Origin: a virus
DNA length: 37,307 bases
Virus record (IMG/VR): IMGVR_UViG_3300048006_000156
Location: 1-37,307 of that record
Strand: one strand, 5' to 3'
Shown here: positions 497-37,307 of the stretch, in pieces
How the letters are laid out: every line of letters starts with the position of its first letter
How positions within the stretch are numbered: position 1 is the first letter of the stretch
The notes under the pieces: model-generated
Told to the model about the DNA's origin: nothing
What the model saw: the letters and a program-made list of their open reading frames with translations, nothing else
Databases searched by the model: none
Program-made: the position numbers and the translations under genes

Positions 497-856
497 TTAG
501 TATACCCAAAAAACTTCAGGTGATTTATTTTTATCAATATCTACATGAATAAATGTTTTGCCAACACCTATTCTTTTAAATCCTACTTCTCTTAGTATAT
601 CATATAGCTTAAATCTATCAACAGAGTTAATACACTTTATATCTACAGCTAAACCTTTTAAGTGTGAAGAATCTGGTTTACCTCCAACAAACTCATTGTG
701 TTCAGGTGTTCTAAATCCTGAGTTAGGATCAATAGCTTTACCGTATTTTTTACGAGCAATATCTAACATGCTTATAAGTTCATCACTCATATTTTTCCCG
801 CTACCTTCTAAGTCTGGAGAATCAAACTCTCCGTAAGTAAAATATTTAAACTTCAT
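497..856 (-). CDS. M15-type D-Ala-D-Ala peptidase, probable endolysin
   Basis: This 119-residue protein matches the compact peptidase M15 fold (VanY / L-Ala-D-Glu or D-Ala-D-Ala peptidases). Visible motifs are SGFRTPEHN (residues 46-54), SSHLKGLAVDIK (63-74) and FIHVDID (102-108). The zinc ligands would be H65, D72 and H104. Such enzymes cut peptide cross-links in peptidoglycan. In a phage they act as endolysin or as a virion lysin. There is no signal peptide, so release would need a holin, and two candidates lie far upstream in the same operon. The ATG overlaps the stop of the giant internal-protein gene (TAATG), so expression is late. Length and spacing of the ligands are typical for phage M15 enzymes. 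Confidence 0.85.
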   Translation of the reverse strand: MKFKYFTYGEFDSPDLEGSGKNMSDELISMLDIARKKYGKAIDPNSGFRTPEHNEFVGGKPDSSHLKGLAVDIKCINSVDRFKLYDILREVGFKRIGVGKTFIHVDIDKNKSPEVFWVY

Positions 857-3800
857 TATTTAATAGTATATCTTTTTTTACGAGCTTCTTCTTCTTTTGC
901 TTTTTTAGTTTTAGCTCTAGTTGCTTTTGCTTTTTCTTTACCTTCTTTTTTTCTTCTAGCTTTAGCTTCAGTTTTTATAAGTTCGTGCTCTTCATTCTCC
1001 GCGCCAACATCCCAAGATCTCCAACCTAAAGCGAGAGCTACTCTTTGCCAAACAGTGTTTCTATAATCTAAGGCTTCAGTTAAAGCATTCACCTCCGTTA
1101 CAGCTCTATCTAAAGGTAAGTTTGTGATACCTTCAGTTACTGATCCTAGTACTTTATATGATGGACTTAAATTAAATTTACCATCTATAGTAATATCCCA
1201 ATCTCTTTTTTCAATAACATCTTTTTCAAATTTCTTTGTTTGAATACCGCTATAAACTTTTCTAAGTTTTGATCCAATAGATGGAGATAAATTTGCTAAG
1301 GCTAATATAGTATAGGTGTGATCAGCCATAAACTTCTTTTTCTCCTGTTTGTCATATTCTTGATAAGCATTTTTAATGGTAGATATGAAAGCGCCAGGTA
1401 AACCAAAACCTCCTTTTAAAGTAGTGTCAATCATTCCATTTATTATTCTACCTTGCTTTGTGCTATACACTTTCCCATACTTTTCTAATTGCTCTTCTTC
1501 AGTAAGCTCATCATCCTCATCTTCAAATCCTGGTATTAAAGCAAATAAAGCATTCTGCAATGCGGAGAATATTATGTTTTGAACAGTACCATAATATATA
1601 ATTTTACTTAAGTTGGAAAAATCACTCTGTATCATAGTCTGCCCAGGTGTTCTTCTTCTGTTTTTTATATCTAAAGCAGCCTTCTTTATAGACCTATTTA
1701 ACTGTATAGGTGTATTTTGAAATGCTAAAAGCATTCTACCGACAATACTTGCTTGATCAGATGATATTAAAGCCGGATCTCCAGATTGTTGGGTTTCTTC
1801 AGATATTTGACTAAAATCTTTAAAAGCCATTTCCTCTGCTTGTTCCTTAGTATATAGAGCCTCTCCCTCTTCGTTTACTTTTTTCAAATAGGAATTTATT
1901 CTATTTCTATAAAATGTAGCACCACCTGCTGCAATAGCAAAACTATCCGCCATTTGTGTTGGTGTAAAACCTATTTTTAATAAGTAACTTAAAGCAGCTA
2001 ATGCTTTGTTTTTAGACCCTTTGACCGCTCTTGCAATCTCAGCTTCGTTAACATCACTTTTCAAACCAGATCTTCTTTGCTTAAGTTTAGATGAATTAAA
2101 CAGTGTAGCAAAATCAGACCAATATTGTTTTTGATTAGCAAACGCAGCTGCTGCTTTTATAGGGTTGTTGTCTGACCAATTAATAAAGTTAACTGTCGAC
2201 AATGTTTGTAATAGCGCGGATCTTCTATTGAAAAACATTATTGCCCCAATAGAATTGTTAATCCAGTTATTAAATCTATTAGTATTATCAGACGAAGAAG
2301 ATGGTCTATTTGTACCGTTTTTCATTCTGTACAAAATATCTTCTAAAGCATCTCTAGTTGCTTTACCATAACCAGCTTCTACTTTGTTAAGATTATCTTC
2401 GCTAAATATTATATCTGCATTTTCAATAAATTCTGATAAGAATTCTTTTCTACCTACCTTTTCAGTTAAATTATTTAAATCAGATAATATAGTCTCCGCA
2501 TCCCAAAAATCACCAGGCTTAGCCCATTTAGGTCTTTTTGATATCTGTTGTAACTTTCTAGCATACTCACTTAAATCTGCATTGTCGTTTACATAATCAA
2601 CTAATTTTTTCTGATCTATTTCAGATAAACCTGGTATTTCATATCCCGAGGCATTCCATAATGCAATTCTTATAGCTTGATCGTGCGTAAATTCAGTCCC
2701 TGGTACAAGTTTACCAAGTTTCTTTATAACAGGTCTCATTTGTTTATTAAGTGCCTTAAAATCATCCTTAAACGATTGTCTAGTTTCTTCAATAGCTCTT
2801 ATGCCTTTAAAGTACGGGTCTATTAAGTTATCTTGAAAAAACTTTTGATCAGCTTCACCTTGTCTACCTTTTCCAGCAAAAGTATAAGAGGTTAATCCTT
2901 TAAAGTCATCGAGAGATGAAGGCATAAATAATTTAAATTTACCTTTTTTAATACCTTTTCTTCTAGCTATTACTTTGCTAATAGTTTCATTTGCTTTAAT
3001 GCCTGTACCTCTTTCTAGCATTTTATTGAAGCTTTTATCTAGTTTTAAACTAGGCTTCATATTTTCCATTTCCGCTACAGCTTTAATGCTTTTAACTAAA
3101 GACTTTATGCCACTAGCTGTGTCTAATGAATTACCTTTTGGGTTTTTTATTTCTTTAAAATTTGGAAAAAGCCTCATATAAACTGTAGTATTGGATCTCA
3201 CGGGTCTTAATACATTATTTGTAGTAGCCTCGAGCTTTTGATAAAATCCAGAAAGTTTACTTTGATTACCAACTGCAAAAGCACCGTAATTTCCAATCTG
3301 CATTAAATCTATCCCTTTGTAAAAGTCTTCTACAATAGATTGGTTACCTTCGTAACTTATGTACCCTGCTATTTTACTAGGCATTTCATCCTTTATATTT
3401 TGCCAAAATTCTTTATATGGTAATTCTAAATGACCGTTATCACTTATAGTTGCTTTTTCGTTAGACTTTGAATTAGCTTTATTAATGGCATTTATTAGAT
3501 CATTTAAATACTTTTTATTTTTATTTAAAAAATCTACAAATTTTTCTTTGTTATTTTCACTTAATTTGTTATTTATTTTTAAATTACTAGAATTTTTTAG
3601 TGAAACTAAGCCATTTGTTATTTTAAACAATCCAGTTGATATACTACCTATTTGAGCTTTATCATTAAGCTTAACCTCCACTTTATATTCTTTACCATTT
3701 GCTTTAACTACAATGTCTCCTTTTTTAGATTTTATTAACTCAATTTTTACTTTACCACTAGTATAATCATTTAAAACTTTTTGTAAAGCTTTTTCATATT

Positions 3801-6800
3801 TAAATCCTTTATTAGAAGCTTCAGCTTCTTGCATTCTTTGCAATATCCCTTCTTGTATGATATTTTCTAAAACCCTATTAATTACATTTTCAGGTATTCT
3901 ATTTGCAATACCAATTTCTTTAATTTTATCTGAAAGAAGTCCTTCTTCTATTGCTATTTTTTGTATATTATTTATATCTTCAATTTTCATAGAATACTTT
4001 ACAGTACCTCTATCTAAGTCTCTTTGAAGCTCGTTAACAAAATTATCATTTAACATTTCCCCTAAAGCTTCTTGATTACCTTCAAAAGCTTTACTTATAT
4101 CTGAATTTTCATTTTGTATTTCTTTAGACAATATTTCAAAAGCTATTTCTTCAGCTATAGCTTTACCTAAAGATTCTCTTTTACCTCTAATAAGTTTACC
4201 TTTTTCATCAATAAATAAACCTACAAAGTCAGCATCAGAAACTTTATCGGCAGGCACTCTTCTAACTATTTCATTACCAGCAGTAGCCCCTCTAACCAAT
4301 GTTTTTTCACGATCAATCTTCTGACCAACCCACTGTGGATATGGCACAAAATTAGGTGCAAACTCTTCTTGAACAATTTCCTTACCACCAACGTTCACAG
4401 TTACTTTCTTTCCAGTATATTTACCGCCAACTGATTTTTCAATCGCTTGAGGAATACCCCCGCTAACTTTCTTACCACTGTCTTTACCCATTAAAAAAGT
4501 AGTAGTCATATTTTCTATGATAGCTTTCTTATGTTTTATAAGATTCTTTTCATAACTACCATCCTTTAATTTACCCAATCTTTGGATAACAAGTTTAGGC
4601 GCAGCATTAGGATCTCCTACAACTTTACCTATTTTCTTTTTTATCTCTGCAACTAAAGGTGTTGTGGCTGAGTTATCACCTCTTCTAGCTGTGATTTTGC
4701 TTTCAAGACTAGCTAGAACTTGCGTTAACTTTTCTGTTATAGCCGTTAAAGTAAAGTTAGGTACAATATTGCTTTTAGTAAGTGGTACGTATTTTCTTTT
4801 TTCAACTTCTTGAGGTGCAGCATCTTCTCTTGCAATAACATTTTTAGCTACACTAACGTCTTCTTTAAAACCACCTTCACCTTCTTTCTTAAATTTAGCT
4901 AAAGCTTCCTTTACCCTATTTCTTACACCGTACTGACTACCTATAATGTAACCACCTAAATCATTGTTTGACTCAGGGTTAAAAGCCATTATGTTTTTCT
5001 TTAATTGAACTCCAGCTACTTCTATAAAAAAGTCGTCCCAACTTTTACCGTACACATTGTCAGCAACAACACCATAACCAGCAGCAATCTTTTTAATTAA
5101 AGGATTAAGCATACCTCTATCAATGTTATTTATGACTTTAATAGCTATCTTTTCTTTAAATTCTTTATTAGTTGTACCTGGAGGTACCATTTCTTTTAAC
5201 TGATCACCAATTCTTTTTTCATTTTTCTTGGTATCACTTTTTACTTTTTCTTTAGCTTCAGACGGTTTAGATAATTCTTTCTTTTTAGATAACCTTATTT
5301 TTGTTTCTAAATTAGCTTTAGCTGTTTGAAAATCAATTTCATTATCAAAATCAAATTCATCTAAATTATTCAGTTCCTCTTGCAAAGATAACGAAGGTTT
5401 AACGCTAGCAGTTCCTGTTCCCTTTAGGTTACTATCAATAAGCTTACCTTTAACACCTTCTTGCAATGATTTTTCAAGACCTTTGCTAAGTCCTTTTCCT
5501 TTTTTAATACTTCTATTATAATCTTTAATAAAGTTAAAAACATCTTGCCCTGTATTAAATTCAGCTTTCCATCCAAATTTACTAAACAATCTTCTAAAAA
5601 GATCTTTTAATTTAGTTCCTAAATTCTCGCTGTATTTTATGTCACCATCCAGCATAGCTTCACTTAAAAGAGTTATAGTTTCTTCCCTTAAGTTACCTAA
5701 AGCTTTCATTGCCTTATCATTAGCTTTTTTTGCTAATTCAGGGTCTTGCATGCTTTCTGATATGCTTTTAAGCTTATCAATTTTAGGTTGGTACTTTGCT
5801 TGATATTGATCTAATCTTTTTTGTAAAAACTTATTGTCGGTTTTTACTTTAAGAGTCTTCATAAAATCAAAAAGACTATTGCTTACGCTAATTTGATTTT
5901 CTGGTGATAAACCGGATTTTAAAGTTTGATCCAACGCAGCATGTAAAACTTCGTGAGCAGCTGTATTTACAACACCGTCTTTAAAAGCTTCTGCTCTATT
6001 TATTAATATTATTTGGCTACCATCTTTTCTAGTTATAGTTTGACCATAAGCATCGCTATAATTTACAATAGGTTTCTTACCGTCTTCTTCCCTAATTTTA
6101 TCTACTAACGCGTTTACGGTTGCTTGATCATCTGCAAATTCAATATTTGCCCCTTTTACGCTTTTTAATATTTCAACCGCTCCTTTTTCAGATTTAACTG
6201 TTTCAGCTAATAATGCTTCTTTTGCAGAAACATTATTTAACTCTTCATTTATTTCTTTAATCCTAGCTTTTTCTTCTTTTACTAATTCAGGATCTTTATT
6301 TGCAATATTTTGCTCAATGTTATTTTTTTCTATTATTAAGTCAAATGCTTTTTTTCTTCCAGATTCACTAAATGTTTTTGGAATTTTTAATCCAGAATTT
6401 CTTATAGTACTTAAGTTTTCGCTTTCGTTCCTGTATTCTTCTTGTGTAATTTCACCGTTATCCAGTTTTCTCTGTAAATTACTTTCAGCTTCTTTAAAAA
6501 AATTATTAGCAGCTTTAAGACTTGATCCAAATTTACTTGTTAAATCAAACTTTGTAGCTACATCCCTAGCTGAATTTCTTAATTCTGAAACAGATTGCCT
6601 ATATACGCTTGCTCCAAAAGGTATAAAGAATCCAGCTAAACCACCTCCTAATGCAGCCTCTCTGTTAGCTTCAGTATCTATATATTTACCTATACCACTA
6701 AGTCCTTCTAATTGAGTTCCTATGCTTATTTGCGAAGCTAAATTTTGACCTAATTCAGTACCAGCTTCTCCAATACCCGCTATAGATTGCTGTTTTAACC

Positions 6801-8574
6801 CTCTAGCTGTAGATTTTACAAATTGTTTTACCTCGCCTTTATATAAAGAGCCTAGTGATTTTCTTAAAGTACCACCTAGCCCTAATGCTTTCATTGTATT
6901 TTTAGCAACTTTAGTAGCTCCTAATTGTTCTAGACTAGCGGAAACTACACCTGTAGCAGCAGCCTGCGCTTGAGAAGCGTATTTGCCTTCCTTTAATGCT
7001 TCTATAATGTTTTTTTCGTTGTATTCTAGACCATCATTTTTTAAACCCTGCTCTATAGCCCCCATATAAGAAGCTCCGTATTCCATAGTGAACATAGACA
7101 TAAACCCTGCTCCGGCTAGCACTGGATTACCTGTCATTGCCCCACCGGCTGCTACCGCCATGTAAGGTGCGGATGCTGATATAGTTTTTATAATGTCCTT
7201 AAATTGTACCCCATCAGAAAAATCTGCTTGAGTAAAAAGAGAACCATATTCAGAAGAGTCCATAACATCTTGTATATCTTCAGCAATTGATTCCTGTGTT
7301 AAATTAATTTGATCTTCAAGATATTTTATTTTATCTTTTACAGTACCGCTTTTACCTCCAACTCTAGTATTGCTTTTTTGACTAAAAGATCCGCCATATA
7401 TTACTTTAGCATCCTCTTTTAATTTACCAGATTCAACATCATTTTTTAACCTAGTTATTTCGTCATACTTATTCTGTAGTTCTACTTGTTGAGCTGCTAC
7501 TTGAGCTTTGTTAAAGTCTCCTCCCATTTGTACAAATGTACCTCTAATAGGCTCTACAACATTTGAAAAAATGCCAGTAGGATCATATTGATCAAGAAAA
7601 TCTATAGAGCTTAAAAAAGCGCTTTTGTATCTTCCAAACTTTATATTTTCCTTTTCAGCAACTTTACTAGCTACTAATTGTAAGTCTTTTACAGTGTTTT
7701 TATAAGCGGCAGATTGGGACACCGGATCTATTACAAGTTCTTTCCATCTATTATCGTACGCTTTTTCAGCTTCAGCAATTCCCTCGGGAGTGTTGAAATC
7801 ATATTTATCTCTTAATCCAAGAGCGTAATCTTTCAGCTCTCGTTCTGCTTTTTTAGAGGCTATTTTTATTTGATAGTTTATAAGTGGGTTTTCTGCAATT
7901 GTTTTTTGTATACCTTGATCTAAAGCTATATTAAAATCTTTCTTATCATCAAAAGCATCAAAATTGTTTGGTAGATTTTTAGAAAACTGTTTTTCAGCGT
8001 CTTCTGTAGGTATTGAATCGTAAGTATTAGTTGATTGATTGTATTGCTGCCTAGTGTACCTAGGAGCTTTATTAGCTAATTGTGATGCTGCAAAATTTTG
8101 CCGGTATTCTATATCATAATTTTTTAAAAATTCATAAATACCTTCAGCCTTTAATATACCCTCAAAGCTATCCTTATAATCTTGCAATTGTACACTATAA
8201 GGTTTTTCATTGTAACCAGTAGTTCCGTCTTCTTTTAAATAAGTCCCGTATATTTCTTTTTTTTCAGTATCTCTTTTGTAATCTTCAAATTCTTGTTGAG
8301 TTACTTCCCTACCGTTTATAATAAATGGCTTAGGGTCTTCTAAATCCGAAGGAGTATCTACCGAAGGTAATTCCGTAAAACCTGCTTGTGATGCTGTCAT
8401 TGGTTGCTGCACTGCATCCGCATCCTCTACAGTGCTTGTTGGAAAATCCTGTGGTTCGTCTTTTTCAAAAGTAATTTTATGTTTACTAATATAATCTTCC
8501 ATAGAAAGATTTGCTAACTTTGCAGCATTTTTTATTTCTTCTTCAGAGTATTTAAAACCGTCGTATATATACAT
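856..8574 (-). CDS. Giant multi-domain internal virion (ejection) protein, 2572 aa
   Basis: This gene takes up a fifth of the window. The product is mostly charged and helical, with Ala/Gly-rich hydrophobic stretches around residues 460-500 and 635-660 and another near 2350, as in podovirus proteins that form a channel through the cell envelope. An AAHEVLHAAL motif (H874, E875, H878) is a zincin-type metallopeptidase site. Around residues 1594-1635, E1594, D1620 (KKGDIVV) and E1633-x-K1635 (VEVKLN) fit a PD-(D/E)xK nuclease core. The last 100 residues are very rich in Lys, Glu and Ala. It follows two other probable internal proteins and precedes the lysin, the usual place for ejected proteins. 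The family role is inferred from size, order and motifs; the enzymatic activities are hypotheses. Confidence 0.8.
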   Translation of the reverse strand: MYIYDGFKYSEEEIKNAAKLANLSMEDYISKHKITFEKDEPQDFPTSTVEDADAVQQPMTASQAGFTELPSVDTPSDLEDPKPFIINGREVTQQEFEDYKRDTEKKEIYGTYLKEDGTTGYNEKPYSVQLQDYKDSFEGILKAEGIYEFLKNYDIEYRQNFAASQLANKAPRYTRQQYNQSTNTYDSIPTEDAEKQFSKNLPNNFDAFDDKKDFNIALDQGIQKTIAENPLINYQIKIASKKAERELKDYALGLRDKYDFNTPEGIAEAEKAYDNRWKELVIDPVSQSAAYKNTVKDLQLVASKVAEKENIKFGRYKSAFLSSIDFLDQYDPTGIFSNVVEPIRGTFVQMGGDFNKAQVAAQQVELQNKYDEITRLKNDVESGKLKEDAKVIYGGSFSQKSNTRVGGKSGTVKDKIKYLEDQINLTQESIAEDIQDVMDSSEYGSLFTQADFSDGVQFKDIIKTISASAPYMAVAAGGAMTGNPVLAGAGFMSMFTMEYGASYMGAIEQGLKNDGLEYNEKNIIEALKEGKYASQAQAAATGVVSASLEQLGATKVAKNTMKALGLGGTLRKSLGSLYKGEVKQFVKSTARGLKQQSIAGIGEAGTELGQNLASQISIGTQLEGLSGIGKYIDTEANREAALGGGLAGFFIPFGASVYRQSVSELRNSARDVATKFDLTSKFGSSLKAANNFFKEAESNLQRKLDNGEITQEEYRNESENLSTIRNSGLKIPKTFSESGRKKAFDLIIEKNNIEQNIANKDPELVKEEKARIKEINEELNNVSAKEALLAETVKSEKGAVEILKSVKGANIEFADDQATVNALVDKIREEDGKKPIVNYSDAYGQTITRKDGSQIILINRAEAFKDGVVNTAAHEVLHAALDQTLKSGLSPENQISVSNSLFDFMKTLKVKTDNKFLQKRLDQYQAKYQPKIDKLKSISESMQDPELAKKANDKAMKALGNLREETITLLSEAMLDGDIKYSENLGTKLKDLFRRLFSKFGWKAEFNTGQDVFNFIKDYNRSIKKGKGLSKGLEKSLQEGVKGKLIDSNLKGTGTASVKPSLSLQEELNNLDEFDFDNEIDFQTAKANLETKIRLSKKKELSKPSEAKEKVKSDTKKNEKRIGDQLKEMVPPGTTNKEFKEKIAIKVINNIDRGMLNPLIKKIAAGYGVVADNVYGKSWDDFFIEVAGVQLKKNIMAFNPESNNDLGGYIIGSQYGVRNRVKEALAKFKKEGEGGFKEDVSVAKNVIAREDAAPQEVEKRKYVPLTKSNIVPNFTLTAITEKLTQVLASLESKITARRGDNSATTPLVAEIKKKIGKVVGDPNAAPKLVIQRLGKLKDGSYEKNLIKHKKAIIENMTTTFLMGKDSGKKVSGGIPQAIEKSVGGKYTGKKVTVNVGGKEIVQEEFAPNFVPYPQWVGQKIDREKTLVRGATAGNEIVRRVPADKVSDADFVGLFIDEKGKLIRGKRESLGKAIAEEIAFEILSKEIQNENSDISKAFEGNQEALGEMLNDNFVNELQRDLDRGTVKYSMKIEDINNIQKIAIEEGLLSDKIKEIGIANRIPENVINRVLENIIQEGILQRMQEAEASNKGFKYEKALQKVLNDYTSGKVKIELIKSKKGDIVVKANGKEYKVEVKLNDKAQIGSISTGLFKITNGLVSLKNSSNLKINNKLSENNKEKFVDFLNKNKKYLNDLINAINKANSKSNEKATISDNGHLELPYKEFWQNIKDEMPSKIAGYISYEGNQSIVEDFYKGIDLMQIGNYGAFAVGNQSKLSGFYQKLEATTNNVLRPVRSNTTVYMRLFPNFKEIKNPKGNSLDTASGIKSLVKSIKAVAEMENMKPSLKLDKSFNKMLERGTGIKANETISKVIARRKGIKKGKFKLFMPSSLDDFKGLTSYTFAGKGRQGEADQKFFQDNLIDPYFKGIRAIEETRQSFKDDFKALNKQMRPVIKKLGKLVPGTEFTHDQAIRIALWNASGYEIPGLSEIDQKKLVDYVNDNADLSEYARKLQQISKRPKWAKPGDFWDAETILSDLNNLTEKVGRKEFLSEFIENADIIFSEDNLNKVEAGYGKATRDALEDILYRMKNGTNRPSSSSDNTNRFNNWINNSIGAIMFFNRRSALLQTLSTVNFINWSDNNPIKAAAAFANQKQYWSDFATLFNSSKLKQRRSGLKSDVNEAEIARAVKGSKNKALAALSYLLKIGFTPTQMADSFAIAAGGATFYRNRINSYLKKVNEEGEALYTKEQAEEMAFKDFSQISEETQQSGDPALISSDQASIVGRMLLAFQNTPIQLNRSIKKAALDIKNRRRTPGQTMIQSDFSNLSKIIYYGTVQNIIFSALQNALFALIPGFEDEDDELTEEEQLEKYGKVYSTKQGRIINGMIDTTLKGGFGLPGAFISTIKNAYQEYDKQEKKKFMADHTYTILALANLSPSIGSKLRKVYSGIQTKKFEKDVIEKRDWDITIDGKFNLSPSYKVLGSVTEGITNLPLDRAVTEVNALTEALDYRNTVWQRVALALGWRSWDVGAENEEHELIKTEAKARRKKEGKEKAKATRAKTKKAKEEEARKKRYTIK

Positions 8575-24333: not shown

Positions 24334-26544
24334 TTATCTTAATATTTTAGACATAGAACCTCTATTATCATATCTTTTAATTCCTAAATCGTAAACCTTT
24401 TTTTGCACTGGACTAACAGGTGAGTATAGGTTTTTATTGCAAGCCATTATAGCTAATCCTGAACTTATAGAAGCATCGTGTTTTGTTCTATTGTTTATAT
24501 TGAATTTACCCCAATCTTCTAATGTTCTTTGAAAGTACATATCTCCATAACCTGCTTCTGTTCGTCCAACACAAGTTTCTATGTATGATTCTATAGCTGC
24601 AGCGTGTGCTTGCTTTATATCTTCACTAGAGTTTGGTATACCACCTATCTCTCTTTCAGTTACAGATAATTTGTTTAATCTTTTATCAGGTCTGTTCATT
24701 GAGAAGCCTCGATAACCTCTTCTTTTAAAATGATACAGTAATCTAGGTTTGTTATTTTCAGCAAGTAATGGCATACCGTAAAATATGCAAGCCATCAATA
24801 CGTCTTCAAAAAATATTTCAGCAGTTTGTGGCCTAGCTATATATTCTAAAAAGAATCTATTAGGCGGAACATCTTCCATGCTAAACTTAGTTAAACCGTG
24901 TAAAGCTCCATTAGAACCTCTTTTATCAACTGTACCTGATATATCATAACTATCACAACCAAAAGCACCACAGTGCTCGTTACCTGGATATTTTGTGTTA
25001 CCTTTTACTATAACCCTGTTTTGCAATTGAACAGGTGGAACCCAACTTACATTAAACCTGCCATTTTTGTTTGGCACAAATATAACTTTAGTATCTTTGA
25101 TCCCGTTTTCCCACATAAAACTTCCAGTGGTTATTATCGATGTGTTTCTAAGATCTTCGTTATAATCTATCTGTTCGTATATTTTTGTTAAGTTGAATAA
25201 AGATTGTTTTGCCTCATCTCTAAAAGCATGTTGCTCTGTTCTTGGAAATTGACGGTAGTATTCATTTAAACCATCTTGATCTCCCTTTAAGCCTTCAACT
25301 TCATTATTCCAATAATCAATTACACCTTGTTTTATAATCGATCCGTCAGGTCCTTCAATTGTTTTTTTTGGTGTTTCAAATACAGGAAATCCATAAGAAT
25401 CAATGTATCCTTCGTAGTTCCATTCCATAGGAATGAACAAACTATAGAGTCCTGAACGAGTTTGTCCATTTGCATTTCTTTTTGTTGCGTCGGAGTCATA
25501 GTATAATTTTTTGAAATTTTCACCACCCTTATCTAAAGCGTTAGATGTACTACCCATCATACACTTACCTATAATCTTAGAACCTAATCTTAAACAAGTT
25601 TTTGTAACTCTCCAGTTATTTAATATATTTGTAGGTCTTTCCCATTTTCCACTTTCATCGTGTACTAATAGTTTTAATTTTTCACCATCGTACGAGTTGT
25701 CCCCGGTGTTCTTCCAGTCGATCGTTGTGTCGAGACCTGTGATCTCCTGTAACTTCTCGTTGGTGTCAAGCTTTTTACGGGTGAATTTTGATGCTGGTAC
25801 TCTGTACGCAAGCTCCGTCTTCGGCCTGTCCATACCGTCCTGGATTGGTTTGAAGAAGAAGGGATAGTTAACTGAGATGGGTACGACCTTATCAGTAAAC
25901 ATCTTTTTGGCGTCTGGCCCGGACTTTGATAAAATGCCAAATCTTGAATCTGTGGATATTGTTGCCTGATTAACCGTCTCGCCTGATGCCATGAAAGAGA
26001 AACCTGACCGTCGGTTTTTAAGATAACACATTCCGTAACACCGTTCATCTGCCTTACAAGCTTCCCAGAATATATAGAATAATCTGTTTGATTCCCTAAA
26101 GTCTGGTTGCCCAACATCAATTTTGGACCACTGCAAGTACATGTAGTGAGTGCCAGTAATATAAGAAGGCTTGTTTTTATTAATAAACCAAAAACCTTCG
26201 TCACGCCTTTTAAACTCCTTGTCAATATAGTCATACCACTTTTCTTTAAAATCTGAAGGGTACTCATCCCAATCAAATACTGATTTAATTTTAGAAAGCT
26301 CCTTAGGATATTGAGTATATTGCCATTTGTTTTCTTCAAATTCAACAACGTCTTCTGCTTTTGGCAATGCTATTTTTAATCCTTGTATTTCGTAAACTTC
26401 CCCTATTTGTCCGGTTTTACTAATTATAACAACGTCATGTTCCTCATTGTATCCGTAATCCCACTTCTTATATCTATTTAGCCTATTAACTATTTTAGGC
26501 TTTATATAGTCTTTTAATACTGTTACTAAAGTTTGCTCGTACAT
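24334..26544 (-). CDS. Terminase large subunit, 736 aa
   Basis: This is the motor that pumps DNA into the prohead and cuts it. A degenerate Walker A lies in LKNRRSGFS (about 175-183). Walker B is KLLVHDES (291-298), with the catalytic Glu after Asp. A coupling motif MGSTSN is at 330-335. The C-terminal RNase H-like nuclease has GCDSYDISG (D531) and a late Asp in KHDASISSG (D690). The gene starts in a TAATG overlap with the preceding 93-aa gene and abuts the portal gene. The DNA for residues about 128-288 is much richer in G+C (about 45%) than the rest, yet the frame is intact and the motif order normal. Confidence 0.9.
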   Translation of the reverse strand: MYEQTLVTVLKDYIKPKIVNRLNRYKKWDYGYNEEHDVVIISKTGQIGEVYEIQGLKIALPKAEDVVEFEENKWQYTQYPKELSKIKSVFDWDEYPSDFKEKWYDYIDKEFKRRDEGFWFINKNKPSYITGTHYMYLQWSKIDVGQPDFRESNRLFYIFWEACKADERCYGMCYLKNRRSGFSFMASGETVNQATISTDSRFGILSKSGPDAKKMFTDKVVPISVNYPFFFKPIQDGMDRPKTELAYRVPASKFTRKKLDTNEKLQEITGLDTTIDWKNTGDNSYDGEKLKLLVHDESGKWERPTNILNNWRVTKTCLRLGSKIIGKCMMGSTSNALDKGGENFKKLYYDSDATKRNANGQTRSGLYSLFIPMEWNYEGYIDSYGFPVFETPKKTIEGPDGSIIKQGVIDYWNNEVEGLKGDQDGLNEYYRQFPRTEQHAFRDEAKQSLFNLTKIYEQIDYNEDLRNTSIITTGSFMWENGIKDTKVIFVPNKNGRFNVSWVPPVQLQNRVIVKGNTKYPGNEHCGAFGCDSYDISGTVDKRGSNGALHGLTKFSMEDVPPNRFFLEYIARPQTAEIFFEDVLMACIFYGMPLLAENNKPRLLYHFKRRGYRGFSMNRPDKRLNKLSVTEREIGGIPNSSEDIKQAHAAAIESYIETCVGRTEAGYGDMYFQRTLEDWGKFNINNRTKHDASISSGLAIMACNKNLYSPVSPVQKKVYDLGIKRYDNRGSMSKILR
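25676..26160. other. GC-rich segment inside the large terminase gene
   Basis: By direct count, 215 of 480 bases (about 45%) from 25681 to 26160 are G or C. The 60-base row before it has 27% and the row after it 32%. The left border is sharp and falls just before the Walker B codons. The segment uses codons rare elsewhere in the window (for example CGG, GTC and GAC) and also creates a long false reading frame on the same strand. It covers the first part of the ATPase domain, including Walker A. Likely cause: homologous recombination with a relative of different composition. Confidence 0.75.
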
Positions 26545-28889: not shown

Positions 28890-29198
28890 TTACTTTGCTT
28901 TTTTATATGCTTCTTTTTCCCAGGGTAAGTTTTTTGCCCCTTCTTTCATTTGTTTGCGTGAATATTTTTTACCTTTCCAGTAAACGTTTTGATCGTCGTA
29001 GTCTAAGTCGCCACGCTTCATTTGATCTATGTGTACCATTTCGTGGTTTATAACACTATTTAATTTAGCTGGTGATAAATTATTGTTTATAATAATAGTA
29101 CCGTTATTATTGGCTTTACCTAAAACGCCATCTTCCATATCTACACTGTAAATAGGAGTATTGTCTATGTTATAAAATGGTGTAATTTTAAAAGCCAT
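28890..29198 (-). CDS. Small HExxH zinc-metalloprotease-like protein (102 aa)
   Basis: The motif VINHEMVHIDQ places H52, E53 and H56 in a zincin site. The downstream NLPWEKEAYKKA offers E94 or E96 as a third ligand, in the gluzincin manner. The region between (KRGDLDYDDQNVYWKGKKYS) is one I associate with short marine phage proteins of this kind. There is no signal peptide. The substrate is unknown: head-protein maturation or a cell-wall or host target are both possible. It begins MAFKITPFYN, sharing MAFKI with the following gene. The ATG comes after a structured intergenic element and a run of A's. Confidence 0.7.
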   Translation of the reverse strand: MAFKITPFYNIDNTPIYSVDMEDGVLGKANNNGTIIINNNLSPAKLNSVINHEMVHIDQMKRGDLDYDDQNVYWKGKKYSRKQMKEGAKNLPWEKEAYKKAK

Positions 29199-29218
29199 AT
29201 TTTTTTTTTAAAAATAAA

Positions 29219-29381
29219 TGTACAGGCGGGTCTACAGTGCTGTCTTTGCAAAAAACTGGGGCGAGCTTCGCGGCTGGTTGTGGGGATCATCCCACGTGTA
29301 GCCGAAAGGTACCAAGATCTCTACCAATCATGCAAATGCTTGTCATGAGAAATGCTGGGACAACACCTCGCTGCCTGTACA
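29219..29381. ncRNA. Putative structured RNA of unknown class
   Basis: A 163-base element fills most of the 192-base gap between two genes. It has about 52% G+C in an AT-rich genome. Its ends, TGTACAGGC (29219-29227) and GCCTGTACA (29373-29381), form a perfect 9-bp closing helix. Inside are GCGA-GCT-TCGC (29261-29271), GTGGG-GATCAT-CCCAC (29280-29295), a GAAA-tetraloop stem with one bulge (29298-29312) and an 8-bp stem (29328-29348). Extra G-T pairs and the GAAA loop favour the plus strand, opposite to all genes, but only weakly. It is not a tRNA, and I cannot match it to a known ribozyme, riboswitch or pRNA. Confidence 0.65.
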
Positions 29382-29390
29382 ATTTTTATT

Positions 29391-29555
29391 TTACTTTCTG
29401 CAATATTTAGACATCCAAGAACCTTTCATGGCTAGTGGAGATTTACCTAATTCAGATCCATATCCTTTGTTAAGATTTTTAACAGCAGACCCTTTGTCTA
29501 CAATAGGATTGTCTTTAATTAAGTTTTTCTTTTCTTGCTTGTTGTAATTTTTCAT
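29391..29555 (-). CDS. Small basic hypothetical protein (54 aa)
   Basis: The frame from an ATG at 29555 to a TAA at 29391 encodes 54 residues, starting MKNYNKQEKKNLIKDNPIVD and ending with GSWMSKYCRK. The leader is AT-rich without a Shine-Dalgarno sequence, as for its neighbours, and the composition is Lys/Asn/Gly-rich. It ends ten bases before the structured element. The repeated Gly-Ser-Lys pattern (PLAMKGSWMSKYC) resembles neighbouring small genes. Unknown function. Confidence 0.6.
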   Translation of the reverse strand: MKNYNKQEKKNLIKDNPIVDKGSAVKNLNKGYGSELGKSPLAMKGSWMSKYCRK

Positions 29556-30623: not shown

Positions 30624-31064
30624 TTATCTATTTTTATCGTTATTTACATTTCTTATAGATACACTTAAAACCTTATCAGTGTAAGTACTTCCTTTCATTA
30701 TTCTATTTCTACTACTCGTAGGTATATCATCTTGGCCAAGCATAATTCTATAAATTCTATTTATAAGTTGCTTGCCTTTAAATGATACTTTATATATATG
30801 ATACTTTTGAGTAGTTCTATTTCTTTTTCGCCAAACAGAAATCCAGTCTTCTTTCAATAATTTATTCCATCTTCTATTATTCCAGCTGTATGAAAACGTA
30901 CCTGTTTTAAAATCTTGCTTAGTAAACATATCTAAACAATCTAAATAAATTAATAGCTCTAGATCTGCATCATTTAAGTCGTTATTTCTGCACGCCCACT
31001 TTCGTATGATTCTATAGTGCTTTAATAACCCTAATTTTTTAACGTCACTAGCATCTATTCTCAT
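30624..31064 (-). CDS. Possible winged-helix DNA-binding protein (146 aa)
   Basis: The protein is basic. The N-terminal 50 residues are helical (LGLLKHYRIIRKWACRNNDL, then ADLELLIYLDCLDMFTK). A basic segment NNRRWNKLLKEDWISVWRKR follows, and then a beta-like KYHIYKVSFKGKQLINRIY. This resembles a MarR-like winged helix (helices, a recognition helix rich in Arg/Lys, then a wing and KGKQLI). The gene overlaps groES by 4 bases (ATGA). If it is a regulator, it could act on late phage transcription. The fold call is by pattern only. Confidence 0.5.
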   Translation of the reverse strand: MRIDASDVKKLGLLKHYRIIRKWACRNNDLNDADLELLIYLDCLDMFTKQDFKTGTFSYSWNNRRWNKLLKEDWISVWRKRNRTTQKYHIYKVSFKGKQLINRIYRIMLGQDDIPTSSRNRIMKGSTYTDKVLSVSIRNVNNDKNR

Positions 31065-31327
31065 AAAACTACAACTATATCTTGCATTTTTATAACTTGA
31101 TACGGATCACCTTCTATTTCTATAATGTGACCTGCATGTCTATCATAATATATAATATCGTTCTTTTTCATACCTGCATTAGCAGCATCTTCCCCAGGTG
31201 ATACTATTGATGCTTTCACATATCTAATATCCTCTCTTTGTTTTTCGGCAAGAAGTAAACCGCCTTTAGTAGCGGCTACTCCTTCTTTTTGTTTTTTTAT
31301 TATTAAGTTTCTACCTATCGCCTTCAT
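31061..31327 (-). CDS. groES: Co-chaperonin GroES-like protein, 88 aa
   Basis: The length and layout match cpn10, the heptameric lid of the chaperonin. It starts MKAIGRNLIIKKQKEG, has the mobile loop ATKGGLLLAEKQ with GG (22-23) and a hydrophobic LLL (24-26) equivalent to GG-IVL in E. coli GroES, then RYVKASIVSPG, the barrel strand KKNDIIYYD, and ends QVIKMQDIVVVL. It overlaps the groEL gene by 17 bases and lies downstream of it, the reverse of the usual groES-groEL order. The lid presumably works with the phage GroEL, or can adapt the host GroEL as T4 gp31 does. Confidence 0.8.
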   Translation of the reverse strand: MKAIGRNLIIKKQKEGVAATKGGLLLAEKQREDIRYVKASIVSPGEDAANAGMKKNDIIYYDRHAGHIIEIEGDPYQVIKMQDIVVVL

Positions 31328-32864
31328 TTGCTCTTAAATTATTAATTACACAATCAGTTGATAATATTGTAGTAGCTACAGACGCAGCATTTCTTAATGC
31401 ACTTTTGGTTACCATTAACGGGTCAATTATACCGTGTTTAACCATATCTACAGGCTCTCCTGTTATTGCATTCAAACCAACACCTTTATCTTGCGGTTGC
31501 AATGCTGTAATACCTGCATTTTCTAATATTGTAAAGTAAGGAGCTTTTATAGCTTTTAATAAAACTTCTTCGCCTAAGCCTTTACTTTTAATATATGTTG
31601 AAGCGTTTAATAATGCAACTCCACCTCCTGGTACAATACCTTCTTTAACAGCAGCTTTTGTTGCACAGATAGCATCTTCAACTCTATCAGTTTTTTCTTT
31701 TAACTCTACTTCAGAGTTTGCACCAACTTTAACTACTGCAATTTTAGCAGTTAGCATTGATAATCTTTTTTCAAGCTTTATAACTTCCCAACTTTTTAGC
31801 GTGTTATTTGTAAGCTTTTCTTTTATGCTACGTATTACATCTTTTATTTTTTCGGATGCCTCAGAGACTGTTATAACAGTATCCTCGTGTGAGGTAACAC
31901 TTTTTAAACAAGATCCTAAATAATCTACATCAATAGAGTCAAGATCATCGCCTAAATCTTCGTTAACTATAGTAGCACCTGTTAATAAAGAAAGATCCTC
32001 TAGTACTTCTCTTTTGCTTATACCATAAGTAGGAGCATTGATTACGTTTACTTTTAGATTACCTTTCTTTTTATTGGTAGCTAGAGTTGATAAAACACCT
32101 TGTTCTAAATCGCCTATAATAAGCAAAGGTTTGTTGTTTTTTATTACGTACTCCAGCACTTTTTGTATATCTCTTATAGTGTTTACGGGTGATTCCATTA
32201 TTAACACTAGTGGATTCTCTAATTCAGCTGTTTTTGTTTGTGGATTTGTAATGAAATGAGAATTTGTCAAGCCTTTATCATAAGGAACACCTTCAATTAA
32301 TTCAGAGACAGTTTTACCGTCACCGGCAGTTTCCATCATTACAATACCTGTATTATCTACAGATCTAAACGCGTCAGCTATAATAGAACCTAGTTCATTG
32401 TCGTTGTTAACGGATATAGAAGCTATATTATCTAACATATCGCCTTTTACTTCTACCGCTAGCTCTTCTAAATACTTAATTACTTTTTCAACTGCAGAAT
32501 TTATGCCGTCTTTTATTTCTCTAGCATTTTTCTTTTCCGAAACAGCGTAAGCTTCCTTTAATATAGCGTGAGCTAAAACAGTGGCAGTAGTTGTACCGTC
32601 TCCTGCTTCTTGAACAGTTTTTCTAGCAGCTTCTTTTAATAACGTAGAACCCATATTTTCAACTGGATCAAACAATATTATAGAATCAGCTACAGTAACA
32701 CCGTCTTTTGTTATTACAGGCTTACCCGTACTATCTTCTAGCATTACGCATTTACCACCAGCTCCTAATGTAGAGCTAACGGCATTTGCTAATTTTTCTA
32801 TTCCTTTAAATACTTGATCTCTAGCGTCTTCACCAAAATTCAAGTTTTTGACAATTCCGTTCAT
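31311..32864 (-). CDS. groEL: Chaperonin GroEL-like protein, 517 aa
   Basis: This is a full-length chaperonin, somewhat shorter than the roughly 540 residues of bacterial GroEL because it lacks the Gly-Met-rich tail. It has the nucleotide-binding motifs ITKDGVTVA (D54), AGDGTTTAT (D89), the catalytic Asp in RVEDAICATKAA (D397) and PGGGVALL (413-419), plus a late Asp in IIDPLMVTKSAL (D481). The apical domain lies around residues 185-365. All ATPase residues appear intact, so it should be active. It probably folds the fibre, capsid or other large virion proteins. The ATG follows AT-rich tandem repeats and hairpins, with no Shine-Dalgarno sequence. Confidence 0.92.
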   Translation of the reverse strand: MNGIVKNLNFGEDARDQVFKGIEKLANAVSSTLGAGGKCVMLEDSTGKPVITKDGVTVADSIILFDPVENMGSTLLKEAARKTVQEAGDGTTTATVLAHAILKEAYAVSEKKNAREIKDGINSAVEKVIKYLEELAVEVKGDMLDNIASISVNNDNELGSIIADAFRSVDNTGIVMMETAGDGKTVSELIEGVPYDKGLTNSHFITNPQTKTAELENPLVLIMESPVNTIRDIQKVLEYVIKNNKPLLIIGDLEQGVLSTLATNKKKGNLKVNVINAPTYGISKREVLEDLSLLTGATIVNEDLGDDLDSIDVDYLGSCLKSVTSHEDTVITVSEASEKIKDVIRSIKEKLTNNTLKSWEVIKLEKRLSMLTAKIAVVKVGANSEVELKEKTDRVEDAICATKAAVKEGIVPGGGVALLNASTYIKSKGLGEEVLLKAIKAPYFTILENAGITALQPQDKGVGLNAITGEPVDMVKHGIIDPLMVTKSALRNAASVATTILSTDCVINNLRANEGDR

Positions 32865-33345: not shown

Positions 33346-36300
33346 TTATTTTTCTAATTCTTGTATTCTTTCTTCTAATTCGGCAATTTTTGCTATAAGT
33401 AAATCTATATAAGCTACAGACTTAAAACCTTCAGCATCTTCTCTTACAAATTCAGGATTAGTTTTTTCTAACTCCTGAGCAATAACTCCATATCTTTTTT
33501 GACCTTTATCAGATTTAAACTCAAATGTTTTCCATTTAACGTCTAAATTATTATTACATACTTTTTCAATATTTTCTTTTAATCTTTCGTCAGAAGAATT
33601 TATGAAGTTTGTAGCTGTAACCGTGCTTGTAAAAGTAGCTGCTTGGTTTGAAGCTAAAGATAACGCTTTTGAATTATTCGAATATAGATGTGTAGTTTCA
33701 GGTGTATTATATCCTTCTGTTGTAAAAACTTTGTAACCTCCAACCGATAGGTTTAAAGCTTCATTCCTATAACCACAATTTAAAATAACATTATAATTAC
33801 CGTCACTTGAACTGGATAGTTTTATAGACGGATGTGTTTCACCTGAAACGTGTAGTCTTTCTTGAGGACTAGCAATACCAATCCCAACGTCTCCACCGTT
33901 AAAGTACGAAGCAGAATTAGATCTTATTCTAGCGCCAATAACATTAGAACTATTTCTTAAATAAATTTCTGAACTATTATTATTAAAGTATATTCCACTG
34001 TCTGCTGTGCTAGCGTTGTTTCTTACTTGAACAGCCCATTGATTAGCTGAAGCGTTTGTACCTACAAAAAACCTATCACTTTGAACAACACCGTTTACAT
34101 CTAATTTTTGACTAGGGCTAGTCGTTCCAATTCCTACATTACCAGCATTAGATATTGTCATCCTCGTGGAATTGTTTGTTTTGAAAAACATAGGGTAGTA
34201 AGCACTATTGGATAACACTGTTTCATTGCTAGATTCAAGTAATGACGTATAATTGCCTGCTTTAAAACCTGTAGTAGCTTTTGCATATCCAGTTACCTCT
34301 AACTTCTCACTAGGGCTAGTCGTTCCGATACCTACGTTACCACCAGATTTTATACGCATGTATTCTGCGACACCAGCAGCGCTTTTTCCAACAAAAGCCA
34401 AATCACTAGCATCACTACCTGATCTTATAGATACTATTCTACTTACAGAATTATTATTAGTACCTACAGTAAAAAGTAGTTGAGAGAAATTATTAGTATT
34501 ACCAGCTGTGTTTGTATTATTTATTGTAGTACCCGCAGAGGCCTGACCACCTGAATCTGTTGGGCTGTAAACCGTAGTTTGACTTCCTTGAATATGTAAC
34601 TTATTTGTAGGACTAGTCGTCCCAATACCTACGTTACCCGCGCTTGTAATACGCATTTTTTCAGTACTATTAGTAGCAAATAATAAGTTACTATTTTCTC
34701 TTTGCCAAATTATAGCCTCATTACCTGTGTTAACCCCAACATCAAATCCATCAGCAGTTGTAGTTCCTGTTTGAGCATTACTAAATTTAGCGTAAGATGC
34801 TGAAGAAGCGGTACTATTATTAACGTGTAATTTTTGAACTGGATTAGTAGTCCCAATCCCTACATTACCGTCTGCTAGTACTTCGAATAAACTACTTGCT
34901 CCTCCATTACCTTTTAGTCTAAATACAGATGTATTATTATTTAAGTCGGTTTGTCCATAAAATAAATTTCCAGAGCTTCTTACATCTAATTTATAAACAG
35001 GACTAGTCGTACCGATCCCAAATCTACCTGAGGAATCTATACGCGCGCGTTCAGTGTTGTTTGTAGCAAATCGTAAAGCCGTATTATCCGAATTCCATAG
35101 TCTATTTCCATAAAAACCTTGATCTGAGAATACGTTTCCTGTTAAATTAATGCTACCAACAACATCCAACTTCTGGCTCGGACTATTAGTACCGATACCA
35201 ACGCTACCTGTGTTATCTATGTAAACTGTTTGGGCAGAGGAATTACCACCTCCCCTTAACTCAAGCTCTGTAGAATTAGATCTTTCTCCTATGAAAGTAT
35301 TATTTCCCCCGAAGTATATATGTCTATTGTCTCCGTCTAGTTTTACATTTCCAGCTACTTCAAGTTTTTGACTAGGGCTTGTCGTTCCAATACCTACGTT
35401 CTTAGATGTATCTATAAAAATAGCATTACTTCCGTTTTGCATGATTTGCATAGAAGTGTTGTTATAAGTACCCATATAGCCAGTTGCTCCACCCGCTACC
35501 ATTCTTATATCACCGCCCCCAGCCTCTGATACTTTCATTGTTGCGCTACTCTTGGAAATTGTTAAATTACCTGATAATGTACCTCCAGTTAAAGGCAGAA
35601 AAGGCCCCAGTCCACCACCATGAGCATCTACATAACTTTTACTTGCAGCATCGGTTGATGCTACTGGAGTAGCTGGTATTGTCACTTGCCCAGTAAAACT
35701 ACCAGTTCCAACTACATCTAATTTAGAAGTTGGACTATTCGTACCGATACCTAAATTACCAGCAGCGCTTAAGGTCATAGACGACGAACCTATTGCGTTG
35801 CCGTTAACAGTAAAACGTAAATACCCTCCTGATGTTTTTGCCCACAAGTAATTACCTGTTGCTCTAGTAAAACCTACGACATGACCGCTTAGAGTAGTAT
35901 TGCCATACTGACCAGCTACCTCTAATTTTTCACTAGGACTAGTTGTACCAATACCTACGTTGCCAGAGGAGTTTATATAAAATCTATCACTACCAGCTGT
36001 TCTTATCTTAAAAGTATCATTAGAAGGGAATCCAAATTTTGTATCGCCATCGTTATTGTGTAGTATGTAATCATCAATACCGACGGAGTCAGCACCAACC
36101 ACTGTCAAGGGATTAGAAGGACTAGTAGTACCGATACCTACATCGCCTTGAAAATAGTTTTTTACAGCACTACCTAGTTGATAAACGCCGTAATTGTTTG
36201 TAGCTGCTGTCCCTGGGTTTAAATATACACCGTAATTATTAGTCACTGTTGCTAACCCACCTACGCCTAAGCTGTTTACTTTTAAACCTGCATGACTACC

Positions 36301-37307
36301 TAATGTTACCGCATTCGTAGATGTATAATTTCTATATTCAGCAAAGAAATTAATCATCTCATCGGTATTACCTTTAGCGTTTTCTCCGTAAGCTCTAGCT
36401 CTAAAAGTAGACCATCTTCCTGTAGCTCCAGGAGGTGTTCCTGTTAACTTAATAAAAGCACCTACGCTACCACCCGATGATGAAGCCGTGTTATTTGCAA
36501 GTGTATCAAAGTTAAAGTTTGAAGTGGCTTGATTAGTCAAGTGAGCTCCGGTATACTCGTAAAACTTAGTTTCACCGTTAACCACTAATTTTTTTGTTGG
36601 GTTTGTATCATTAACACCAACATTACCAGTAGAAGCGATACGCATTTTTTCAGACCCAGACTGTTTGAATATAACATTACCTTGTGTTCCTTGTATTTCA
36701 GTACCCGTAGATAAGTTATCATCAAAAATTATAGATCCACCGGTATTGTTAGAACTATTTACATATATTTTAGGTATAACTCCAGCTACTTCAAGTTTTT
36801 GACTAGGGCTAGTCGTTCCGATACCTATGTTATGAGTAAGACCGTCTATGTGTAAAGCGGTAGAAGTAGTACCTCCTTTGTTACCTTGAAAATTTATATC
36901 ATGGTTTTGACCCATGTTCCTAATATACAAAGGTCCACCGCCAAAGTCTCCTGCTTGGTCTATATAACCAGCATATCCACTGTGCGAAAGAGTAATTCTT
37001 TTAGACTTAATATTACCATCTACATCTAATTTCTCACCTGGACTAGTTGTTCCGATACCAAAATTACCTGAACTGTTAAGAGTAACAAACCTATTACCAC
37101 CTCCTTTAATTGTAAAGTAGTTTCCACCACCAATAGACCAAACTGGCTGGCTTGAACCATATTGCCATTTATATTGGTTCGTGCTGTCGTTAAAAACAAA
37201 AACATCTCCGTCGTCAATATGTAATTTATCACTAGGGTTATTAGTTCCAATACCTACGTTAGTGCCAGAAACTACTAAAATATTATTATCAGTAGTAACC
37301 CCAGCTA
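33346..37307 (-). CDS. Long tail fibre with S74 self-cleaving chaperone domain, 5' end cut by window edge
   Basis: The frame is open to the window end, so the true start lies outside. A TTG at 36930 is in frame but falls inside a repeat and is not the start. At least 1319 residues are encoded. Some fifteen copies of a GNVGIGTTSPSQKLEVAG-like unit are spaced 45-120 residues apart with Ser/Asn/Thr-rich beta sequence between, typical of trimeric fibres. The C-terminus carries SSDERLKENIEKV followed by RYGVIAQELEKTNP and a coiled coil, the S74 intramolecular chaperone, which helps trimerise and then cuts itself off just before the Ser-Asp. It should bind the host receptor. Confidence 0.85.
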   Translation of the reverse strand, partial: AGVTTDNNILVVSGTNVGIGTNNPSDKLHIDDGDVFVFNDSTNQYKWQYGSSQPVWSIGGGNYFTIKGGGNRFVTLNSSGNFGIGTTSPGEKLDVDGNIKSKRITLSHSGYAGYIDQAGDFGGGPLYIRNMGQNHDINFQGNKGGTTSTALHIDGLTHNIGIGTTSPSQKLEVAGVIPKIYVNSSNNTGGSIIFDDNLSTGTEIQGTQGNVIFKQSGSEKMRIASTGNVGVNDTNPTKKLVVNGETKFYEYTGAHLTNQATSNFNFDTLANNTASSSGGSVGAFIKLTGTPPGATGRWSTFRARAYGENAKGNTDEMINFFAEYRNYTSTNAVTLGSHAGLKVNSLGVGGLATVTNNYGVYLNPGTAATNNYGVYQLGSAVKNYFQGDVGIGTTSPSNPLTVVGADSVGIDDYILHNNDGDTKFGFPSNDTFKIRTAGSDRFYINSSGNVGIGTTSPSEKLEVAGQYGNTTLSGHVVGFTRATGNYLWAKTSGGYLRFTVNGNAIGSSSMTLSAAGNLGIGTNSPTSKLDVVGTGSFTGQVTIPATPVASTDAASKSYVDAHGGGLGPFLPLTGGTLSGNLTISKSSATMKVSEAGGGDIRMVAGGATGYMGTYNNTSMQIMQNGSNAIFIDTSKNVGIGTTSPSQKLEVAGNVKLDGDNRHIYFGGNNTFIGERSNSTELELRGGGNSSAQTVYIDNTGSVGIGTNSPSQKLDVVGSINLTGNVFSDQGFYGNRLWNSDNTALRFATNNTERARIDSSGRFGIGTTSPVYKLDVRSSGNLFYGQTDLNNNTSVFRLKGNGGASSLFEVLADGNVGIGTTNPVQKLHVNNSTASSASYAKFSNAQTGTTTADGFDVGVNTGNEAIIWQRENSNLLFATNSTEKMRITSAGNVGIGTTSPTNKLHIQGSQTTVYSPTDSGGQASAGTTINNTNTAGNTNNFSQLLFTVGTNNNSVSRIVSIRSGSDASDLAFVGKSAAGVAEYMRIKSGGNVGIGTTSPSEKLEVTGYAKATTGFKAGNYTSLLESSNETVLSNSAYYPMFFKTNNSTRMTISNAGNVGIGTTSPSQKLDVNGVVQSDRFFVGTNASANQWAVQVRNNASTADSGIYFNNNSSEIYLRNSSNVIGARIRSNSASYFNGGDVGIGIASPQERLHVSGETHPSIKLSSSSDGNYNVILNCGYRNEALNLSVGGYKVFTTEGYNTPETTHLYSNNSKALSLASNQAATFTSTVTATNFINSSDERLKENIEKVCNNNLDVKWKTFEFKSDKGQKRYGVIAQELEKTNPEFVREDAEGFKSVAYIDLLIAKIAELEERIQELEK
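33863..37262 (-). repeat. About 15 dispersed near-identical repeats inside the fibre gene
   Basis: The unit encoding VGIGTTSP-type turns recurs at about 33865, 34110, 34310, 34610, 34845, 35000, 35180, 35375, 35735, 35935, 36120, 36600, 36805, 37040 and 37230. The DNA core is close to ACTAGGGCTAGTCGTTCC on the plus strand, with synonymous changes between copies. Protein variants include GIGTNSP, GIGIASP and a divergent GVNDTNP. Such repeats favour recombination that changes fibre length. They also mark the beta-structured shaft. Confidence 0.75.

Follow-up and report, generated by a model that had tools for sequence, protein, structure and literature searches.

A 163-bp, GC-rich segment bounded by perfect 9-bp terminal inverted repeats separates two genes that lie next to each other in close relatives of the phage examined here. 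The segment is present in this phage and absent from its sisters, its terminal repeats coincide with the edges of the GC-rich island, none of its reading frames has coding relatives, and no other copies were found where searched. It is a real feature, correctly described, and an orphan of one phage lineage. Our leading interpretation, which we hold tentatively and with less than even confidence, is that it is a recent, lineage-specific cassette without an ORF that acts as a terminator-like insulator.

The phage and the non-coding gap

The window, i.e., the whole 37,307-base virus record analysed, carries essentially all of its genes on the minus strand. These include a terminase (24334-26544, minus strand) and genes for a portal protein, a capsid protein, and a GroEL-like chaperonin. 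Terminase relatives among phages belong to phages of Flavobacterium, Cellulophaga, Tenacibaculum, and Maribacter, and the source is a marine flavobacterial phage. Relatives of the window terminase are also encoded in a sequence titled Candidatus Aenigmatarchaeota bin chromosome (CP070801.1, 862143-882347; a 65% relative) and in bins labelled Woesearchaeota, Pelagibacter, and Aliivibrio; these may be phage contigs wrongly binned or joined. Three other regions of the window deserve mention. At 31061-32864, the GroEL-like gene and an adjoining 88-aa gene resembling GroES apparently make up a phage-encoded chaperonin pair. A single 2572-aa protein with an HExxH-type motif (TAAHEVLHAAL) is encoded at 856-8574; it may be an internal virion protein that contains a peptidase domain. 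The repeat-rich, tail-fibre-like protein encoded at 33346-36930 ends in a stretch (SDERLKENIEKV) similar to an intramolecular chaperone domain.

The region of interest is organized as follows:

28890-29198, minus strand: downstream gene, metallo-protease-like, 102 aa (phrog_87, phrog_16532); the anchor of the junction in relatives
29199-29390: non-coding gap, between the start of ORF 28890-29198 (minus strand) and the stop of ORF 29391-29555 (minus strand)
29219-29381: GC-rich island, the inserted element proper, 163 bp; absent in relatives L002, L003, and L005
29391-29555, minus strand: upstream small gene, 54 aa; shared with part of the relatives, L002 and L003 among them

A gap scan identified this as the sole non-coding gap of at least 110 nt in the window, in agreement with the earlier note, which had called it the largest. 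The note had also described 163 bases of about 52% G+C closed by a perfect 9-bp helix, and this description holds: the island at 29219-29381 has a G+C content of 52.1% (44% in the gap and 34% in the window), is richer in G+C than any other segment of its length in the window, and has perfectly matching arms. A 54-codon open frame on its plus strand has no relatives. A leader peptide on that strand (MYRRVYSAVFAKNWGELRGWLWGSSHV) was considered and set aside, as there is no plus-strand gene downstream.

The element is probably an insertion at a variable junction

For comparison, 80 relatives were fetched by terminase and 23 more were taken from genome bins. None of the ca. 31 relatives that have the downstream gene contains the element, wherever their sequence upstream of it could be read. 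In L002 and L003, which are ~90% identical to the window around the site, the flanking genes are both intact and joined by 4 bp; L005, which also lacks the 54-aa gene, has 7 bp at the junction, compared to 192 in the window. Across ~100 related loci, totalling 1.09 Mb, a gap of such size is confined to the window. Other relatives carry different material at the same position: in L049 (3490-3928), an additional small gene of structural type with an ordinary terminator after it, and in L066, a hairpin just before the downstream gene. Since relatives carry 4-7 bp, an extra gene with a terminator, or a hairpin there, the junction is variable and, judging from these alignments, is a repeated site of small-gene gain and loss in this phage family. 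The element itself looks like a recent, one-off, lineage-specific insertion, which by parsimony was probably gained once rather than lost many times.

This distribution bears on what the element could be. A core phage RNA, a packaging RNA, an origin, and a core riboregulator were all rejected, because near-identical relatives do without the element. The earlier note had placed its size and complexity in the range of a ribozyme, a large riboregulator, or a packaging RNA like that of phi29; the same observation argues against the last of these. Nor do the data show the element to be "probably a new phage RNA", as had been proposed: it is missing in all relatives examined, those with ~90% identical flanks included, and no homologue was found in searches. 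Collecting homologous gaps from related phages had been recommended as a check; the junctions could be compared, and none of them contains the element. A narrower version of the proposal, a new RNA of undescribed class confined to a single lineage, made from the gene strand, closed by the 9-bp helix, and serving a regulatory function that near-identical relatives are without, appears to us rather improbable.

The terminal inverted repeats lie at the island edges

The sequence features at the island edges and the predicted helices inside it are listed below:

29219-29227: left arm, TGTACAGGC (P 0.0015 for the position at the island edges)
29373-29381: right arm, GCCTGTACA; pair probability 0.95 on both strands
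29201-29218, minus strand: U-tract (TTTATTTTT then A10) past the closing helix, continuous with the A-rich leader that precedes the next gene
29382-29393, plus strand: T-rich run ATTTTTATTTTA past the closing helix, as read in the sequence
29236-29244, minus strand: inner helix, side one (GACAGCACT as read on the minus strand), pairing with 29359-29367 at a pair probability of 0.99
29359-29367, minus strand: inner helix, side two (GGTGTTGTC as read on the minus strand)
29271-29304, minus strand: central hairpin CGGCT-ACAC-GTGGG-ATGATC-CCCAC-AACC-AGCCG; pair probability 0.95-0.99

The two 9-bp arms enclose 163 nt, with 145 nt between them. Repeats of 9 bp are not rare as such (0-4 per shuffled window), and since they arise anywhere by chance, it is their placement at the island edges that counts: a helix of at least 9 bp between the two edge zones was obtained in 0.15% of shuffles (P about 0.0015). 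The earlier note had pointed to U-rich runs on both strands and to possible termination either way. T-rich runs are indeed present on both strands, but a simple terminator scan of the window did not list the closing helix, whose 145-nt loop is far beyond that of a normal intrinsic terminator. Intrinsic terminator loops are short, at about 3-8 nt.

The placement of the arms also bears on another possibility, namely that the inverted repeat is accidental and the element is either inert foreign DNA, brought in through illegitimate recombination, or an artefact of assembly. Such an origin would account for the lack of homologues, for an interior fold near chance, and for the occurrence in a single metagenomic record. 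It must, however, contend with the location of the arms at the edges of the island (P 0.0015) and with flanks that are both syntenic with relatives, which would require the breakpoint of a chimera to coincide exactly with the boundary between two genes. We consider it rather improbable.

Folding of the interior

Predicted RNA folding of the whole 163 nt gave z values of -2.9 on the plus strand and -3.8 on the minus strand, the gene-strand fold being better than all 400 shuffles. Without the closing helix, the values were -1.1 and -2.1, respectively, and folding the core by itself gave -0.4 and -1.1. Because z falls once the closing helix is removed, most inner hairpins of the island are within chance. 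Partial structure is confirmed: among the "several inner hairpins" described earlier, the central hairpin and the inner helix are predicted at high pair probability. G-U pairs and a GAAA tetraloop had been taken to favour the strand opposite to the genes slightly. This is not borne out: the inner helix 29236-29244/29359-29367 is unbroken only on the minus (gene) strand, through two G-U pairs, and the GAAA loop on the plus strand closes a helix of just 3 bp with a mean pair probability of 0.32. If anything, the G-U argument favours the gene strand, through a helix that alone is not significant (P 0.35).

These data are relevant to a further alternative, an accessory non-coding RNA gene acquired by the phage lineage, folded via the closing helix and acting in trans, e.g., as a regulator or decoy. 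A GC-rich island in an AT-rich genome is often seen with structured RNA genes, and both the z value of -3.8 for the gene-strand fold and the inner helix held by G-U pairs on that strand alone agree with such an RNA. On the other hand, the interior folds near chance, the failure to find homologues means that there is no covariation, Rfam gives no match, and no promoter-like site above expectation is present at the island edge (the scan was for the σ70 type, and Bacteroidota promoters differ). Overall, we regard this alternative as somewhat unlikely.

Searches for other copies

A search of Rfam 15, ribozymes, riboswitches, and pRNA included, returned nothing at gathering thresholds and only two trivial matches up to E 10; the element is therefore of unknown class as far as covariance models go, as had been stated from inspection by eye. 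ARAGORN found no tRNA or tmRNA, with only meaningless matches at lowered thresholds. No homologue of the element was found in phages or plasmids. IMG/VR was searched with five DNA patterns and six back-translated seeds, and only chance matches were obtained; by estimate, the seeds would almost surely find a copy of 95% identity and have a ~0.85 chance of finding one of 90% identity, while more distant copies, or near-identical records omitted from the collections, could escape. No copy was found in all representative genomes using a 21-mer, or in ~795 flavobacterial genomes using BLAST. The ~100 relatives likewise gave nothing beyond chance. A covariance model built from the element alone detected no copy beyond chance in ~790 Bacteroidota genomes; this result is weak evidence, as no sequence from outside the window served as a positive control for the model. 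The inverted-repeat pair pattern was not found in 389 genomes of one flavobacterial family and gave chance matches only in viral contigs; its gap limit confines it to elements shorter than autonomous ones, which are 1-2 kb long.

The small size, the TG...CA terminal inverted repeats, the lack of an ORF, the AT-rich intergenic target, and the polymorphic presence are all in keeping with a MITE-like non-autonomous transposable element that jumped in from the host or another phage. Specifically, 9-bp inverted-repeat ends enclose 163 bp whose frames have no relatives, and the sisters L002, L003, and L005 have empty sites. Yet there is no second copy in viral contigs and 389 genomes by pattern, or in ~795 genomes by BLAST. 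The target duplication is at best a 3-bp AAT, with the arms read as GTACAGGC/GCCTGTAC, which is within chance in the AT-rich flanks, and the element has 52% G+C, whereas MITEs are typically AT-rich. Since copies were sought and none was found, we do not claim MITE membership, and consider it unlikely.

Several similarities proved to be spurious. Terminal-repeat pattern matches in L082-L085, 14-mer matches, and 16-mer matches in L086-L094 are due to chance. A thyA-like stretch at 29238-29271 matches 34 nt of a coding gene (L229 and L230), as is expected by chance over ~800 genomes, and a hairpin TACAGGC...GCCTGTA in L105 lies within a gene and is also a chance match. Kinship to the T-arm of a Synechococcus phage tRNA-Met was dismissed: the hairpin that resembles a T-arm has a loop of 6 nt, and the sequence does not form a tRNA.

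A weak BLAST match led to an unannotated intergenic region of ~130 nt in four ~149-kb Rhodobacterales phages (DSS3_MAL1, MD18, RpAliso, and RcXuper):

L100, 4993-5123 (DSS3_MAL1, MN602268, about 99789-99919): roseophage region; also in L097, L098, and L099

The minus strand of the element has GTGGGATGA[T/C]CCCCACAACCA in common with DSS3_MAL1. This shared stem varies within the roseophages, and their conserved single-stranded parts are absent from the element. Model R1, a covariance model built from the roseophage region, found no match up to E 10 in the whole window and scored 7.4 bits when forced. As the R1 model fails and the shared stem is the variable part, kinship was rejected. Mean column identity across the roseophage region is 89%; several of its hairpins show paired changes, both partners having changed in 7 pairs, and the MAL1 copy has no match in Rfam. 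The region is a candidate new structured RNA.

Discussion

The interpretation that we favour is that a cassette entered a junction where small genes come and go, arriving perhaps by MITE-like transposition or illegitimate recombination. The gene-strand RNA would read, in order, the stop codon, an AU-rich spacer, UGUACAGGC, 145 nt, GCCUGUACA, UUUAUUUUU, an A-tract, and AUG. From this anatomy we infer that upon gene-strand transcription the terminal repeats would pair, placing the closing helix after the upstream stop codon and before the U-tract. The helix and the U-tract would then weaken or stop read-through between the two genes, with the GC-rich middle forming a structured loop. Local terminator-like action is suggested by this anatomy and by the ordinary terminators that L049 and L066 have at this position. 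The closing helix ends 20 nt before the next ATG, and in L049 the distance from the end of the terminator hairpin, CCACAGGG-CTTAAAAA-TCCTGTGG-TATTTTT, to the same gene is 21 nt. Against a terminator, the one in L049 follows an extra gene that is missing in the window, which makes it an analogue and not an orthologue, and close relatives manage without any terminator at the junction.

If the element is a mobile non-coding cassette, it is a clear example of a small insert without an ORF that entered the junction of two phage genes, and would show how late-gene junctions acquire regulatory RNAs or terminators. Should it be an orphan RNA, homologues are needed before any claim is made. For now, its main lesson is that an island rich in G+C and closed by a helix, seen in a single phage, need not mean a conserved RNA.

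Among known systems, the phi29 packaging RNA and other core phage RNAs are similar to the element in size range and in having a closing helix, but absence from nearly identical relatives marks the element as non-core, and it has no Rfam match. Bacterial MITEs are small, bounded by inverted repeats, located in AT-rich intergenic DNA, and form stable stem-loops once transcribed (PMC10969869). The element resembles prokaryotic MITEs such as QMITE2 of Coxiella and SPRITE/BOX of pneumococcus in being shorter than 200 bp and ORF-less, with terminal inverted repeats, an AT-rich intergenic site, a foldable transcript, and presence in one lineage only, with sisters lacking it (PMC10969869); it differs in being GC-rich, in having no second copy found and no convincing target-site duplication, and in lacking a known parent insertion sequence. 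From intrinsic (rho-independent) terminators it differs in its loop, which is 145 nt long where theirs has a few nt, and in giving no match in a standard scan, while it shares with them a GC-containing perfect stem, T-rich runs in both directions, and a location directly after a stop codon.
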